From contig DAIDJG010000434.1 in assembly GCA_027451445.1 (NCBI GenBank), forward strand, positions 1 through 43,592: 43,592 nucleotides of DNA. Reading direction: 5' to 3'. A program made the translations under genes and the position numbers. Position 1 is the stretch's first letter, and each line of letters opens with the position of its first letter. The stretch is from Singulisphaera sp. Its GTDB lineage: Bacteria > Planctomycetota > Planctomycetia > Isosphaerales > Isosphaeraceae. Below are positions 961 to 6,004 of the stretch, piece by piece. The notes under the pieces were generated by a model that saw nothing but the letters and a program-made list of their open reading frames with translations, searched no databases and was not told the origin of the DNA.

Positions 961-2964
961 TCAACTCTCGGAGTGAACTCGTCGCAGGCGCCGCGCCCAC
1001 TCGTCAGCGAGTATGACGTCCGGAGAGCAGAGGTAGGGGTAGGAGAGCCAAAGTCCTGTCACGAACAGTGCGAGGCCCGCAAAGGCGGGGGTCAGGTGCC
1101 AGAGGTTCTCATAACCCACGGCGTAGTGGACGAGGATCGCCGCCAGGTAACCGGGAAGACCTGCAACGAGAGTCGTCCACCAGAGCCAGGACGAACCACG
1201 TCGGAAACCCCAGAGCGACGACGTCAGAAAGACCAGGCCCGCCGAGATCAGCATGCCGCCAAAGCTCGCGCGGTCGTGCGCGATGAGCGGCACCAGATGG
1301 GGACTGACGGCACCCAACTTATGGGCGTCGGTCTTCATGAATTGCAGGTCTTCGGGCACGAACACCGAGGTTATCCCGACCCCTGAAATCACGAGCCCGG
1401 CGACGATGAACGAGACGGCTTGAACGATGAAGAGGAGCTGACCCCACAGGCTTCGGCGCCAGCGGGCGTCGTCGTGCAGACTCGGCGCAGGAATCGCGGC
1501 GCGCGGCGAGAGTCGGGAGTGGATTCCCAGCAGCATCAATTGCAACAAAACAGATGTTACGAACGCGTGGAACGGATCGAAGTAGCCGAATCCCAGGAAC
1601 AGAAAGAAGCTCGCGAAGCCGGCGAATCCCGAAACCGCGACCGCCTTCATGGCCCAATGTTCTCCGCGTCGGATTCCGAACCAGGAGAGCCCAGCGTACA
1701 TCACGCCGATCGTCACCATCGCCCCCGCGAGAGTCACACGATCGTGGGTCATGAATCCGAGCAGTCGCGGATTCGCCGCGGCGATCGCCGTGCGAGGAAG
1801 GCCAACGAAGTGTTCGTCGTAAGGCAAGACGACCCGCGTCGCCGCGATGACGAGTGCAATCGAGCTGCCAACACACATGCTCAACCCTAACAGCAAGAAC
1901 CAGAACCACGTCAATTCGGCGCGACGGGCCGGCGCCGACACTCGCAGCGAATCGTCGCGGGCCTCAGCATGCGTGGCGAACAGCACGGCTTCGTTAACCC
2001 GTTTGGGGAGCCCGGGACCCGAGAAAACGAGTCCGCTGTCGATCTCGACGAGGTCCGCTCCCGCATCGATGAGGTCAAGCGCATCGGCCGGTTCGTGGAC
2101 TCCGCCGGAGGCAACGATGGATAAGCCCGAACCGAAGCGTTCCCGTAACTCCCGAACCCTTAACTGCGCCGTCGCGCGCACGGGTCGCCCCATAAGCCGA
2201 CAGCCTGTCGCGTCGCGCAAACCGCCGTCAACGAGAACGACCGCGATCCCTCGCGATCGCGCTTGCTCCACTCGTCCTACCGCCTCGGCCAGGGGTAGGT
2301 CCGGTGGCACGACCAACCACAAGCCGCGCGTTTCTGCGAGTTCGCGCCGCGCGGCGATCACGCCGTCGAGAAACGTCGACCAGTCGTCGATGGTCCAACG
2401 GGTGTGCGTTGGCGGATCGAGCGCAAAAATCGTGACGGTGCTGGAAAGCTGCGCGATCATCGTGCGCACATCGTTCACGGCGTCAGCGACAGATCGATCG
2501 GCGATTGTGGCAAGGCGCGCGACCAGGGGCAGCCCGACGCTCCGGGTCGCGGCGAGCCTGGTCGCCAGCGCTGCGGCCCCGATGTTCTCGGGTGGGTTCG
2601 CCATGGCGATGGATTGGTCGTGATCGGTGCGTTCGATCTCATCACTTTCGCGACTCACAGCGGGAAGAACCGTGATTGGCCCGAGCTCGATGAACCCGAA
2701 TCCGAATCGCGCCAGCGCTGGCAACGCGAATGCATCGATGTCAATTCCGCAGCCGAATCCCACCGCTGATGGAAAAGTCACCCCATTCAGCGTCCGGGCG
2801 AGTCTCGGGTCCGGATTCATGTGGCCCATGAAGTCGATAACGAACGGCCCGATCGGAGACCGGCCCAGCGTTCCCATGACACCAAGGGCCAGGTCGCGCG
2901 CGGCTTTCGGCCTGAGCCGGAAGAGCAACGGGCGGAACACCGTACGATACGACCAGTCGGGCAT
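961..2964 (-). CDS. Dihydroorotate-dehydrogenase-like barrel fused to a duplicated membrane module
   Basis: 667 residues from ATG at 2964 (GAGG 5 nt upstream; the frame stays open further upstream but without family similarity). Residues about 1-335 follow the class 2 (quinone-linked) dihydroorotate dehydrogenase fold: GFGFIELGPITVLP at about 87-101, and the FMN phosphate-binding end ASGGVHEPADALDLIDAGAD followed by SGLVFSGPGL (285-319). However, the catalytic-serine motif (NISSPNTPG in E. coli PyrD) is replaced by FALDPPTHTRW (180-190), the VKIAPDL lysine by LVVPPDL, and the GLDKDG lysine by GIDIDA. Residues about 352-645 hold roughly eight hydrophobic segments forming two similar halves, each with an HDR...G...RRG signature (about 407-433 and 563-589). 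A membrane-bound flavoprotein is likely, but classical dihydroorotate oxidation is doubtful. No pyrimidine gene lies nearby, so no pyrD symbol is given. Confidence 0.85.
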   Translation of the reverse strand: MPDWSYRTVFRPLLFRLRPKAARDLALGVMGTLGRSPIGPFVIDFMGHMNPDPRLARTLNGVTFPSAVGFGCGIDIDAFALPALARFGFGFIELGPITVLPAVSRESDEIERTDHDQSIAMANPPENIGAAALATRLAATRSVGLPLVARLATIADRSVADAVNDVRTMIAQLSSTVTIFALDPPTHTRWTIDDWSTFLDGVIAARRELAETRGLWLVVPPDLPLAEAVGRVEQARSRGIAVVLVDGGLRDATGCRLMGRPVRATAQLRVRELRERFGSGLSIVASGGVHEPADALDLIDAGADLVEIDSGLVFSGPGLPKRVNEAVLFATHAEARDDSLRVSAPARRAELTWFWFLLLGLSMCVGSSIALVIAATRVVLPYDEHFVGLPRTAIAAANPRLLGFMTHDRVTLAGAMVTIGVMYAGLSWFGIRRGEHWAMKAVAVSGFAGFASFFLFLGFGYFDPFHAFVTSVLLQLMLLGIHSRLSPRAAIPAPSLHDDARWRRSLWGQLLFIVQAVSFIVAGLVISGVGITSVFVPEDLQFMKTDAHKLGAVSPHLVPLIAHDRASFGGMLISAGLVFLTSSLWGFRRGSSWLWWTTLVAGLPGYLAAILVHYAVGYENLWHLTPAFAGLALFVTGLWLSYPYLCSPDVILADEWARRLRRVHSES

Positions 2965-3328
2965 GGGAACCTCGTCGGCACGTCGATGGCGAACGTCCTT
3001 GGAATCGGCGTCTTCCGCGAGCACACCATCTGTACACGGACAGAAGCAGTTTGAGTAGAAACCAGTCAGCAAAGTAGCAACCGAAGCCAAGGCGCCGCCT
3101 TAACTTCGCGGGGCGTTCGCACGCGCCCGATCGCCGCATCAAAGTTCGGCGACCACGGCGATCGCGGTACAGGAAATTGCCATAACAAGATGTCTGTCGA
3201 CCCCTCTGGACCGGAAGGCTCCAATCGTTTATTGGTAAAGATGCTTTCCCCTCACGGCGGAGATGGCTTGGAGCGGCCGGGTCAGTCACCGTAATCCGCG
3301 TGGGGCACGGGGGCAATGGAGCCCTGCT
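2965..3328. other. Divergent intergenic region between the dehydrogenase-like gene and msrA
   Basis: This 364-nt spacer must carry the promoters of two divergent genes. It includes the ribosome binding sites of both (GAGG just before 2964 on the minus strand, GGAG at about 3317-3320 on the plus strand). I see no gene, repeat or convincing sigma-70 promoter pair. Confidence 0.5.
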
Positions 3329-4216
3329 ATGAACGCACGTTGGGTTTCGGCGTTGTTCATGATGGCGTTTGGCCTGGTCTTGCCGCTCACGATATTGGGC
3401 CAGGAAGAAAAGCGACCGGAACCTCCGTCGCCGCAGGCGAACGCGACGGCAGCGCCTTCCGACGCGCCGGAAAAGCCCGCAACCAAAGACAACGCATCGG
3501 ACAAGCCTGCGAGTAAAGAGGACAAACCTGTGCCTCTGAAGCCGGGTAAAGTCGAATTGGCGACGTTTGGCGGCGGGTGCTTTTGGTGCACCGAGGCCGT
3601 CTGCGAGGTCGTCCCTGGCGTGTATTCCGCTGTCTCGGGGTATTCGGGAGGGAGTGTGCCGTTCCCGAGTTATGACGCCGTTTGCTCCGGGAACACCGGC
3701 CACGCCGAGGTCGTCCAGGTCGCGTTCGATCCTGCCATCATCTCGTACGAAAAGTTGCTCGAAGTCTTCTTTCGCTCTCACGACCCGACCACGCCGAATG
3801 CCCAGGGTCCCGATGTCGGAACTCAGTACCGCTCGATCATCCTGTACCACAGCGAGCAGCAGATGAAATCGGCCCTGAAAGTCGCGAAGGAGCTCAAAGC
3901 TCGGAAGGTGATCAAAGGGGACGTGGTGACGCAACTGGTTCCCTTCGTCGCGTTCTTTCCGGCCGAGGCGTACCATCAGGACTACTACAGGAATCACCCG
4001 TTCGAACCCTACAGCATGGTTTATATCGAGCCCAAGTTCGACTTGTTTCGGAAGATGATGAAGGGATCGAGGGCAGCTCAACCCAAGAGCCGCAACATCA
4101 AGGCGTCGGGTACGGTGAAGGCGGCGACGGATGCTACCAAGAAAACGAACGAAGCCGGGCCTGAGAGTGCGAGCCCGGATACGGCCGCGGCCGTGAAGGG
4201 CACAAAGGCTCCATGA
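3329..4216 (+). CDS. msrA: Exported peptide methionine sulfoxide reductase A
   Basis: 295 residues. The enzyme reduces methionine-S-sulfoxide in oxidised proteins. The catalytic cysteine lies in the GCFWC motif (residues 83-87, C84 nucleophile), followed by the family pattern GYSGG, GHAEVVQVAFDP, FFRSHDPTT and GTQYRSIILY. The core spans about 74-240. Start chosen at ATG 3329 (GGAG 8 nt upstream); it begins with a signal peptide (hydrophobic 8-23, then GQEE), so the enzyme is probably periplasmic. A lysine/proline/alanine-rich linker (25-72) and a 50-residue lysine/alanine-rich tail flank the domain, making it longer than the usual 170-220 residue enzyme. A free upstream frame from 3263 lacks a better ribosome binding site. 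It stands first in a plus-strand run but is separated from the next gene by about 200 nt. Confidence 0.95.
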   Translation: MNARWVSALFMMAFGLVLPLTILGQEEKRPEPPSPQANATAAPSDAPEKPATKDNASDKPASKEDKPVPLKPGKVELATFGGGCFWCTEAVCEVVPGVYSAVSGYSGGSVPFPSYDAVCSGNTGHAEVVQVAFDPAIISYEKLLEVFFRSHDPTTPNAQGPDVGTQYRSIILYHSEQQMKSALKVAKELKARKVIKGDVVTQLVPFVAFFPAEAYHQDYYRNHPFEPYSMVYIEPKFDLFRKMMKGSRAAQPKSRNIKASGTVKAATDATKKTNEAGPESASPDTAAAVKGTKAP

Positions 4217-4423
4217 CGACCGTCGGCGGGCCCCCTTAGGGAAGTCGAAGACATGATCCGGCCCCAAAATGGGGTTCGCGATTCCAAAGCGGGAGCAAGG
4301 TCCTGCACTACCACGAGCCCGATCGGCCTCAAATCACCGAGAGCCAGCCCCTGGACTGCTGTGGAGTCTCGCGCCATAATCCGGATCCAAACTGCGCGTT
4401 GGCCTGCCTTCGCCGGAGATCCC

Positions 4424-6004
4424 ATGCTGTTCGGATACGTCAGCGACGAGCGCTATGTGGCCTTGCCCGACGTTCTGCTCGAATTCGAGAACGGCCGTGA
4501 ATCGTTCGAGACCCGCTCCCGAGCGAGCGGATCGGTTCACATCGACGTCCCACCGGGTCCCTTCAAAGTCACACTTCAAAAACCCGGCTTCGGGGCCAAG
4601 AGCGTTCAGATCGAGGTCGGGACCGGCCTCCATCACTTTCGGCTCCTCTCCGACGGCCTGCTCGGCTACGCATGGCCGAAATGGCTACGCGCGGGCGAGA
4701 AGTCGGAGTTCCGGGTTCACTCAGTCGAACCGTACAAGCTCGGGCTCTGGCGTTATGGAGCGGAGAAGGAGTTTATCCGCAACCTCGGATGGTTCGATGA
4801 GCACGGCCCCCGCGCCACGATGCAAATCACACCCGATGGCGATTACACCCGGACGGGCGTCGCATGGAACAAGTACGGGTACGCCAATCCTCATCACAAG
4901 CAGTTCGTCGAAGCACCTTCGCGGTCGGGTCTCTATTACTTTCACGCCCACACGGCCCGAGGCGCGACGTTTGCATTCCCGTGGATCGTCGCACCGCAGA
5001 AGCCCTTAGCGCGTCTGGCGGTACTCGCCTCGAACATCACCTGGAACGCGTACAACAGCTTCGGTGGCCGGAGCAATTACATCAATCCCGACCGGCTGCC
5101 AGAGCGGCCCACAGTCAACGCTCGCCTGGAGCTCCAGCGCTACACCGATCCCGACAGCGTGACATATAGCGCAGACGTCTACGCTCCCCTCTCGTTCGAC
5201 CGGCCGGAGCCGATCAATCACATCGACCTCGCCGAGCAGATTACCGACCCAATCGAGGGGCGCGCCGCGTGTCACATCGCGCCAGCCGAATGGCGGTTCC
5301 TGGGATGGCTGGAACGCGAGGGATTCGCCTACGACTACTATGCGGAGACCCAACTTCACTCCGGCGCACTCAACCTCGACGACTACCGTGTGTTGGTCAT
5401 CAGCACCCACCCGGAGTATTGGACACGAGAGATGTACTTCCGCGTCAAGTCCTGGGTCTTCGAACGCGGCGGGCGTTTGCTGTACCTGGGTGGCAACGGA
5501 CTGAATTGCGAAGTCGATATGATCGACTCTTCTGCGGCCGTTTATCAGAATGGCGACGCGCGTAAGTTGATTCGAGGCGGCTTCGAGAGTCGGTTTCACA
5601 TGCGGGTCGAGTCGGAAGCGAACCTGCTCGGCGTGGTTTTTACCGATGCAGGCGTGATGACGGCTGCGCCGTTTCGGGCGCAGAACGCATCGCACTGGGC
5701 GTTTGCGGGGACGGGCTTACGCGAAGGAGACCTGTTCGGCGAGAAAAGCCTGCACATGCGTTGTGAAGGGGGAGCGTCGGGACACGAGACGGATAAGGTT
5801 TCACCGAGTTCGCCCCCCAACGTCGTAAAACTCGCCAAGGGGACGAACCGAGACGATGGCGGGGCCGACCTCATCACATTTGAGACACCGAGCGGGGGTG
5901 CCGTGTTTTCCGCGGGGTCGATCACCTGGACGAGCTCGATCCCGGTGGACGATGCCGTATCCCGAATCACCGCGAACGTCCTGAAACGATTTCTGGGAGA
6001 CTGA
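4424..6004 (+). CDS. N,N-dimethylformamidase large-subunit-like protein
   Basis: 526 residues from ATG 4424 (GGAG at 4415-4418; the frame extends upstream to 4253 without similarity). Residues about 4-75 form a beta-rich N-terminal domain. The rest matches the C-terminal domain of the large subunit of N,N-dimethylformamidase, with signatures ITWNAYNSFGG (205-215), YDYYAETQLHSG (303-314), ISTHPEYWT (326-334) and GGRLLYLGGNG. In the characterised iron enzyme the metal is held by tyrosines, a glutamate and a nearby histidine. H329 and E331 of HPEYW and the tyrosines above are candidates, from memory of the family. No small subunit is adjacent and no signal peptide is seen. The true substrate is unknown; a C-N bond hydrolase is the reasonable guess. 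The downstream permease begins within 57 nt in the same frame, suggesting co-transcription. Confidence 0.8.
   Translation: MLFGYVSDERYVALPDVLLEFENGRESFETRSRASGSVHIDVPPGPFKVTLQKPGFGAKSVQIEVGTGLHHFRLLSDGLLGYAWPKWLRAGEKSEFRVHSVEPYKLGLWRYGAEKEFIRNLGWFDEHGPRATMQITPDGDYTRTGVAWNKYGYANPHHKQFVEAPSRSGLYYFHAHTARGATFAFPWIVAPQKPLARLAVLASNITWNAYNSFGGRSNYINPDRLPERPTVNARLELQRYTDPDSVTYSADVYAPLSFDRPEPINHIDLAEQITDPIEGRAACHIAPAEWRFLGWLEREGFAYDYYAETQLHSGALNLDDYRVLVISTHPEYWTREMYFRVKSWVFERGGRLLYLGGNGLNCEVDMIDSSAAVYQNGDARKLIRGGFESRFHMRVESEANLLGVVFTDAGVMTAAPFRAQNASHWAFAGTGLREGDLFGEKSLHMRCEGGASGHETDKVSPSSPPNVVKLAKGTNRDDGGADLITFETPSGGAVFSAGSITWTSSIPVDDAVSRITANVLKRFLGD

Follow-up and report, generated by a model that had tools for sequence, protein, structure and literature searches.

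The locus studied here raises a simple question: what is the role of a protein in which a barrel of the class 2 dihydroorotate dehydrogenase (DHODH) type, stripped of its catalytic residues, is fused to a duplicated membrane module? The gene lies in a stretch of 43,592 nucleotides from Singulisphaera sp. (contig DAIDJG010000434.1), hereafter the window, and the original prediction offered two readings of it, namely a new flavoprotein working on another substrate at the membrane or a quinone-linked sensor.

The gene and the pyrD of the same genome

The gene occupies positions 961 to 2964 on the minus strand, a strand that the original prediction did not name, as an open reading frame of 667 codons with a product of 667 aa; all features of this gene given below are on the same strand. 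The ATG at position 2964, with GAGG lying 5 nt upstream and a product starting with MPDWSY, is the most likely start, since an MPDWxY peptide opens nearly all full-length relatives. The gene is single-copy and has no conserved neighbours. In the window, the neighbouring genes on the opposite strand encode a peptide methionine sulfoxide reductase (3263-4216, plus strand), the catalytic domain of which is flanked on both sides by low-complexity extensions and which carries an N-terminal signal-like segment, an N,N-dimethylformamidase beta-subunit-like protein (4253-6004, plus strand) preceded by a carboxypeptidase-regulatory-like segment, an MFS transporter and an enolase-superfamily protein. 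No link was found between these window neighbours and the gene, and in an all-against-all comparison of 41 neighbourhood loci (7 from planctomycetes with the fused form, the window among them, 6 with the module alone, 8 from actinomycetes and 20 from Paenibacillales) only generic regulators and three close relatives recurred near it.

A survey for a second, canonical pyrD, suggested with the original prediction, returned a positive answer in every genome checked. The Singulisphaera genome encodes a separate, canonical class-1-type DHO_dh protein with the NISCPN catalytic cysteine motif (C287, E 5.8e-71), and a full-strength DHO_dh protein is encoded elsewhere in each of the other 15 genomes (E 1e-67 to 1e-88), giving 16/16 for genomes whose family member is fused or barrel-shrunk. 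These results support the conclusion that the gene at 961-2964 is not the pyrD of the cell. A second DHO_dh-like protein of the Singulisphaera genome (L002, G000:C607, 1204-2217) is encoded between pyruvate:ferredoxin-oxidoreductase-like and ferredoxin-like genes.

The class 2 DHODH-type barrel and its former active site

Residues 1-333 (1966..2964) form a class 2 DHODH-type domain in which the fold is complete and the active site is lost. Homology to the class 2 NCBIfam model (PRK05286-type) extends along the whole length of the domain (E 1e-41), with a score of 143 bits that is far below the equivalog cut-off of 267 bits, and the match to Pfam DHO_dh (PF01180; E 8e-15, 55 bits, above the gathering cut-off of 27) shows homology and not function. 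When the full-length protein was modelled (mean pLDDT 78), the whole class 2 fold was reproduced, including the N-terminal helices, and the modelled barrel superimposes on the Escherichia coli enzyme (1f76) with Z 38.7 and rmsd 2.3 over 314 aligned residues; the proposed descent of the barrel from class 2 DHODH is thus borne out. The N-terminal helical segment (residues 1-50, 2815..2964) is equivalent to the helices that form the quinone tunnel and membrane-docking site of class 2 enzymes, and its MPDWxY start, R23, G39 and G47-H48 are kept across the family. In summary, the barrel shares with the quinone-dependent PyrD of E. coli (1f76) and Mycobacterium tuberculosis (8ofw) the whole fold, the N-terminal helical domain and the FMN phosphate side at about 22-29% identity; unlike these enzymes, the protein is without the catalytic, substrate and flavin-ring residues, is fused to eight transmembrane (TM) helices and coexists with a real pyrD.

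The roles of the active-site residues of E. coli PyrD are well established, and their positions, given here in E. coli numbering, were mapped by aligning 35 fused relatives with 9 canonical enzymes. In the window protein, the site of Lys66, which serves FMN and substrate, is found in GIDIDA (residues 73-78, 2731..2748), where GLDK has become GIDI and the lysine is now Ile76; the site of the FMN lysine Lys217 is found in WLVVPPDL (residues 216-223, 2296..2319), where VKIAPDL has become LVVPPDL and the lysine is now Val218. At the site of the catalytic NxSSPNT loop (residues 176-191, 2392..2439), the motif is gone and the loop is shortened, with N172, S175 and N177 replaced by D183, T186 and a gap, respectively. 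Moreover, N111 has become M121, N246 has become G247, GGLSGxP has become CRLMGRP, and the flavin-ring contacts T86 and N139 have been swapped for proline and arginine. The losses at the serine/asparagine motif, the lysines and the GGLSGRP loop that had been read from this single sequence are therefore confirmed, and they extend across the family: 31 of the 35 fused members keep none of the seven catalytic and substrate residues, the maximum being two, and all nine canonical controls keep seven of seven. Position 66 is never a lysine (0/35), Asn111, Asn139, Asn172, Asn177 and Lys217 are kept in 0/35, Asn246 in 1/35 and Ser175 in 4/35; on the flavin-ring side, T86 is proline in 35/35 and T245 is never kept. 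A displacement of the catalytic residues to other positions, against which the alignment was also checked, is excluded, because the only lysines of the barrel are K20 and K321 and no SSPN-like motif is present anywhere in it.

In the same barrel, the FMN-phosphate side is preserved, as had been predicted. The segment of residues 286-324 (1993..2109; SGGVHEP...IDSGLVFSGPGLPKRVN) keeps GG287-288, S310 and G316-P317 in the window protein, and the corresponding positions are kept in 30-34 of the 35 fused relatives (G268 in 32/35, G297 in 34/35, S/T319 in 30/35). The family also has conserved residues of its own, namely Arg23, Gly47-His48, Pro96, Pro292, Lys321-Arg322-x-Asn324 behind the phosphate loop, and HEP. 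The middle of the barrel, the old active-site region, is the most variable and least conserved stretch of the protein. Binding of a phosphate ligand in the barrel, or of FMN anchored chiefly through its phosphate, is conceivable.

The duplicated membrane module

Residues 351-646 contain eight predicted TM helices arranged as two sets of four, with two short helices in the TM1-TM2 and TM5-TM6 gaps. Half 1 (residues 351-482, 1519..1914) and half 2 (residues 500-646, 1027..1467) are similar by BLASTP (26% identity over 112 aa, E 1e-13) and by profile-profile comparison (probability 99.6%, E 8e-24), and both carry the signature P.D..F...HDR....G...(W)G.RRG..W...G..GY....H; the internal likeness noted earlier is thus a true duplication. 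Asp383, His407-Asp408-Arg409 at the start of TM2 (1738..1746), His466, Asp539 and His563-Asp564-Arg565 at the start of TM6 (1270..1278) are invariant in 51-52 relatives, and His613, Tyr618 and His623 are each kept in 51/52, each being absent from a single row. Arginine and lysine are denser in the presumed cytoplasmic loops (TM2-3, TM4-5 and TM6-7; 6.5 per 31 residues) than on the opposite side (3.1 per 66), which would place the barrel and the RRG loops in the cytoplasm and the HDR/His clusters at the outer face. From this positive-inside pattern and the model, the clusters apparently face outward.

When the module and every family member were scanned against Pfam and NCBIfam, only chance-level matches appeared (SPW, EamA, DUF2568); PDB sequence-profile searches with the module and with a single repeat gave chance matches to RNA polymerase only, and Foldseek gave no match to the module below E 0.08. 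As neither of the two family libraries nor any PDB sequence matches the module, its function is deduced here from conservation alone. A group of single 4-TM actinobacterial proteins (L094, L095, L153 and L154) matches half 2 at E 1e-16 to 1e-19 and carries its three histidines; these proteins differ from the module in having one half only and in the replacement of the Asp-Arg of HDR, with SHLHI instead of AHDRA, and they matched no Pfam or NCBIfam family.

Two known structures were considered as relatives of the module. In heme A synthases of the CtaA/COX15 type (PF02628), two 4-TM halves carry histidines at equivalent places, with a spacing of about 62 in CtaA, and the module has the same eight TM helices, the same two-fold repeat, and histidines at the outer ends of TM2/TM4 and TM6/TM8 with a spacing of 59-60. 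A distant heme-binding bundle of this type nevertheless appears unlikely, given that profile-profile comparison with CtaA from genomes carrying family members returned a probability of 0.2% and E 0.32 over small alignments, that PF02628 is absent from the Pfam matches of the module, and that the motifs differ, CtaA having no HDR motif. Somewhat more credible, and still doubtful, is a common 8-TM fold, perhaps with a common role as membrane scaffold or in translocation, for the module and chain O of the Ycf2-FtsHi import motor from Chlamydomonas chloroplasts (8xqw). VIA-align superimposed 250 residues spanning the whole module on this chain (Z 18.2, rmsd 3.6; next best Z 8.5), a score to be read with caution, since predominantly helical models can attain Z of about 14 even when they have no relatives, and since confidence in the modelled module is medium (pLDDT 73.5, 4 alignment rows). 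Against such kinship, identity is 10%, the sequence profile matches no PDB chain, the Foldseek search was empty below E 0.08, and the modelled chain has no barrel. The resemblance is best treated as a lead. Several uncharacterised proteins associated with the algal import machinery were listed in a 2020 study, and one of them (Ctap6) has predicted TM regions (PMC7768757).

Family forms and the proposed role

Among Planctomycetota, fused proteins are found (L005, L006, L012, L021 and L023), and the module stands alone, without a barrel, in several members of the phylum (L013, L015, L016, L017 and L026). Fused proteins also occur in 91 of 296 Paenibacillales genomes (Bacillota; 31% of those sampled) at E <= 1e-5; the query was the module, nearly all matches fell within open frames at least 600 aa long, and a few were broken or partial. 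Among 299 genomes drawn across the phylum outside Paenibacillales, the match was in the centre genome only. A plasmid of Cytobacillus spongiae carries a fused relative (WP_233811857.1). In Actinomycetota, 10 of 394 genomes gave a match, 8 near full length, and the barrel of these forms is cut to about 200 aa, the middle being deleted and both ends kept (MPDWTY ... AGPGWFQRVIEA, the latter cognate to SGPGLPKRVNEA); a relative of this type, annotated as a hypothetical protein, is found on a plasmid of Mycobacterium branderi. No viral contig was found to encode a relative. Several broken copies were also observed: barrel and module in two overlapping frames in a planctomycete (G411:C56, 7413-9298; L022, L102), broken just before the SGPG phosphate loop by a frameshift that is either real or an assembly error, a broken second module copy in an actinomycete (L096, G886:C4), and, in a genome of the Paenibacillales (G580:C109), a module split between two frames.

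In the module tree, which is unrooted, the modules without a barrel fall in a group with the fused L023 (support 100), so that a lost barrel is suggested as the simpler explanation for this planctomycete lineage. Four rows of the barrel tree (L009, L011, L124 and L134, labelled 'can_noSSPN') duplicate fused proteins; with them set aside, the fused members cluster together, L023 being adjacent to the canonical enzymes. A single origin of the fused barrel would be compatible with this topology, though the long branch of L023 keeps it short of proof. Across the family, the membrane module is the constant element, and the barrel is eroded, shortened or absent depending on the lineage.

If the barrel were a decaying, functionless domain carried on a transporter-like protein, a variable middle and its loss in some lineages would be expected, as found; that reading is nonetheless the least probable considered here. 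The omega values of close pairs, obtained from Nei-Gojobori counts with high dS in several pairs, are 0.17-0.30 for the barrel, 0.20-0.34 for its middle and 0.04-0.32 for the module, so that purifying selection acts on both parts, with tighter constraint on the module in most close pairs. Barrel values far below 1 indicate that it is maintained, and the family-specific R23, G47-H48, P96, P292 and K321-R322-N324 likewise argue against decay. This selection, together with the retained phosphate-side glycines and serine, which would fit residual FMN binding, and the conserved quinone-tunnel helices, would also suit an active flavoenzyme that has a different substrate to oxidise and hands the electrons on to quinone or the module. 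Such an enzyme is improbable, because the residues contacting the flavin ring are gone family-wide: every polar contact is replaced, position 86 is uniformly proline, and neither N139, K217, T245 nor a lysine at K66 is retained. In addition, conservation is lowest in the middle of the barrel, a region that actinomycetes have lost, and the conserved membrane clusters apparently lie on the opposite face of the membrane. The flavoprotein reading of the original prediction is thus disfavoured. Its second reading, a quinone-linked sensor, could draw on the same conserved N-terminal segment, although no redox centre can be demonstrated beside it.

Herein, we favour a model in which the barrel is a pseudoenzyme docked on a so far undescribed membrane module with a ligand or cofactor, and to this model as a whole we assign a probability of about two in three. 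Its firmest part is that the DHODH barrel is non-catalytic in vivo, which we consider very likely from the residues lost. The ancestor shared by the whole family is probably where the class 2 barrel would have lost its dihydroorotate chemistry; the barrel would have been retained as a cytoplasmic, membrane-apposed domain for docking, assembly or regulation, or for holding a phosphate-bearing ligand. The working part would be the C-terminal 8-TM module, made by duplicating a 4-TM unit, in which Asp383/His407-Asp408-Arg409/His466 are related by symmetry to Asp539/His563-Asp564-Arg565/His613/Tyr618/His623. The two Asp/HDR/His clusters, on the outer side of the membrane, most likely form a binding site for a cofactor or ligand, which may be a metal, heme or lipid-like molecule; any one particular ligand would deserve much less confidence than the model as a whole. 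The heme bundle and the fold of 8xqw chain O are refinements of the module that can hold alongside a pseudoenzyme barrel, so that the confidences attached to these readings need not sum to one. A partial parallel is offered by the trypanosomatid deoxyhypusine synthase prozyme, likewise an inactive copy of a metabolic enzyme kept beside the active one, which is reported to activate its active paralogue (PMC3663545). In contrast to the prozyme, nothing indicates that the window barrel binds PyrD, and the PyrD of the Singulisphaera genome is of the class-1 type (C287).

The DHODH homology of the barrel is ordinary in itself. A pseudoenzyme under family-wide selection, fused to a duplicated and unnamed module, was not found in the libraries and open papers searched, and may be known elsewhere; no open paper was found on a DHODH-membrane fusion or on 8xqw. 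In its widest form, which we put forward tentatively and regard as less likely than the model above, the proposal is of an undescribed family, present in at least Planctomycetota, Bacillota and Actinomycetota, in which an enzyme would have become a structural domain stepwise (dead site, shrunk, gone), with a duplicated, outward-facing Asp/HDR/His module as the constant part, bearing a new cofactor site and a fold common to a chloroplast import-motor subunit. The family points to a module with invariant His/Asp/Arg clusters, apparently outward, that is absent from the family libraries searched. At least one member (WP_233811857.1, the Cytobacillus protein) is mislabelled 'dihydroorotate dehydrogenase' though its lineage is without the catalytic residues, a label that misleads pathway reconstruction. 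Moreover, the family provides a graded natural series leading from an enzyme to a non-catalytic domain.
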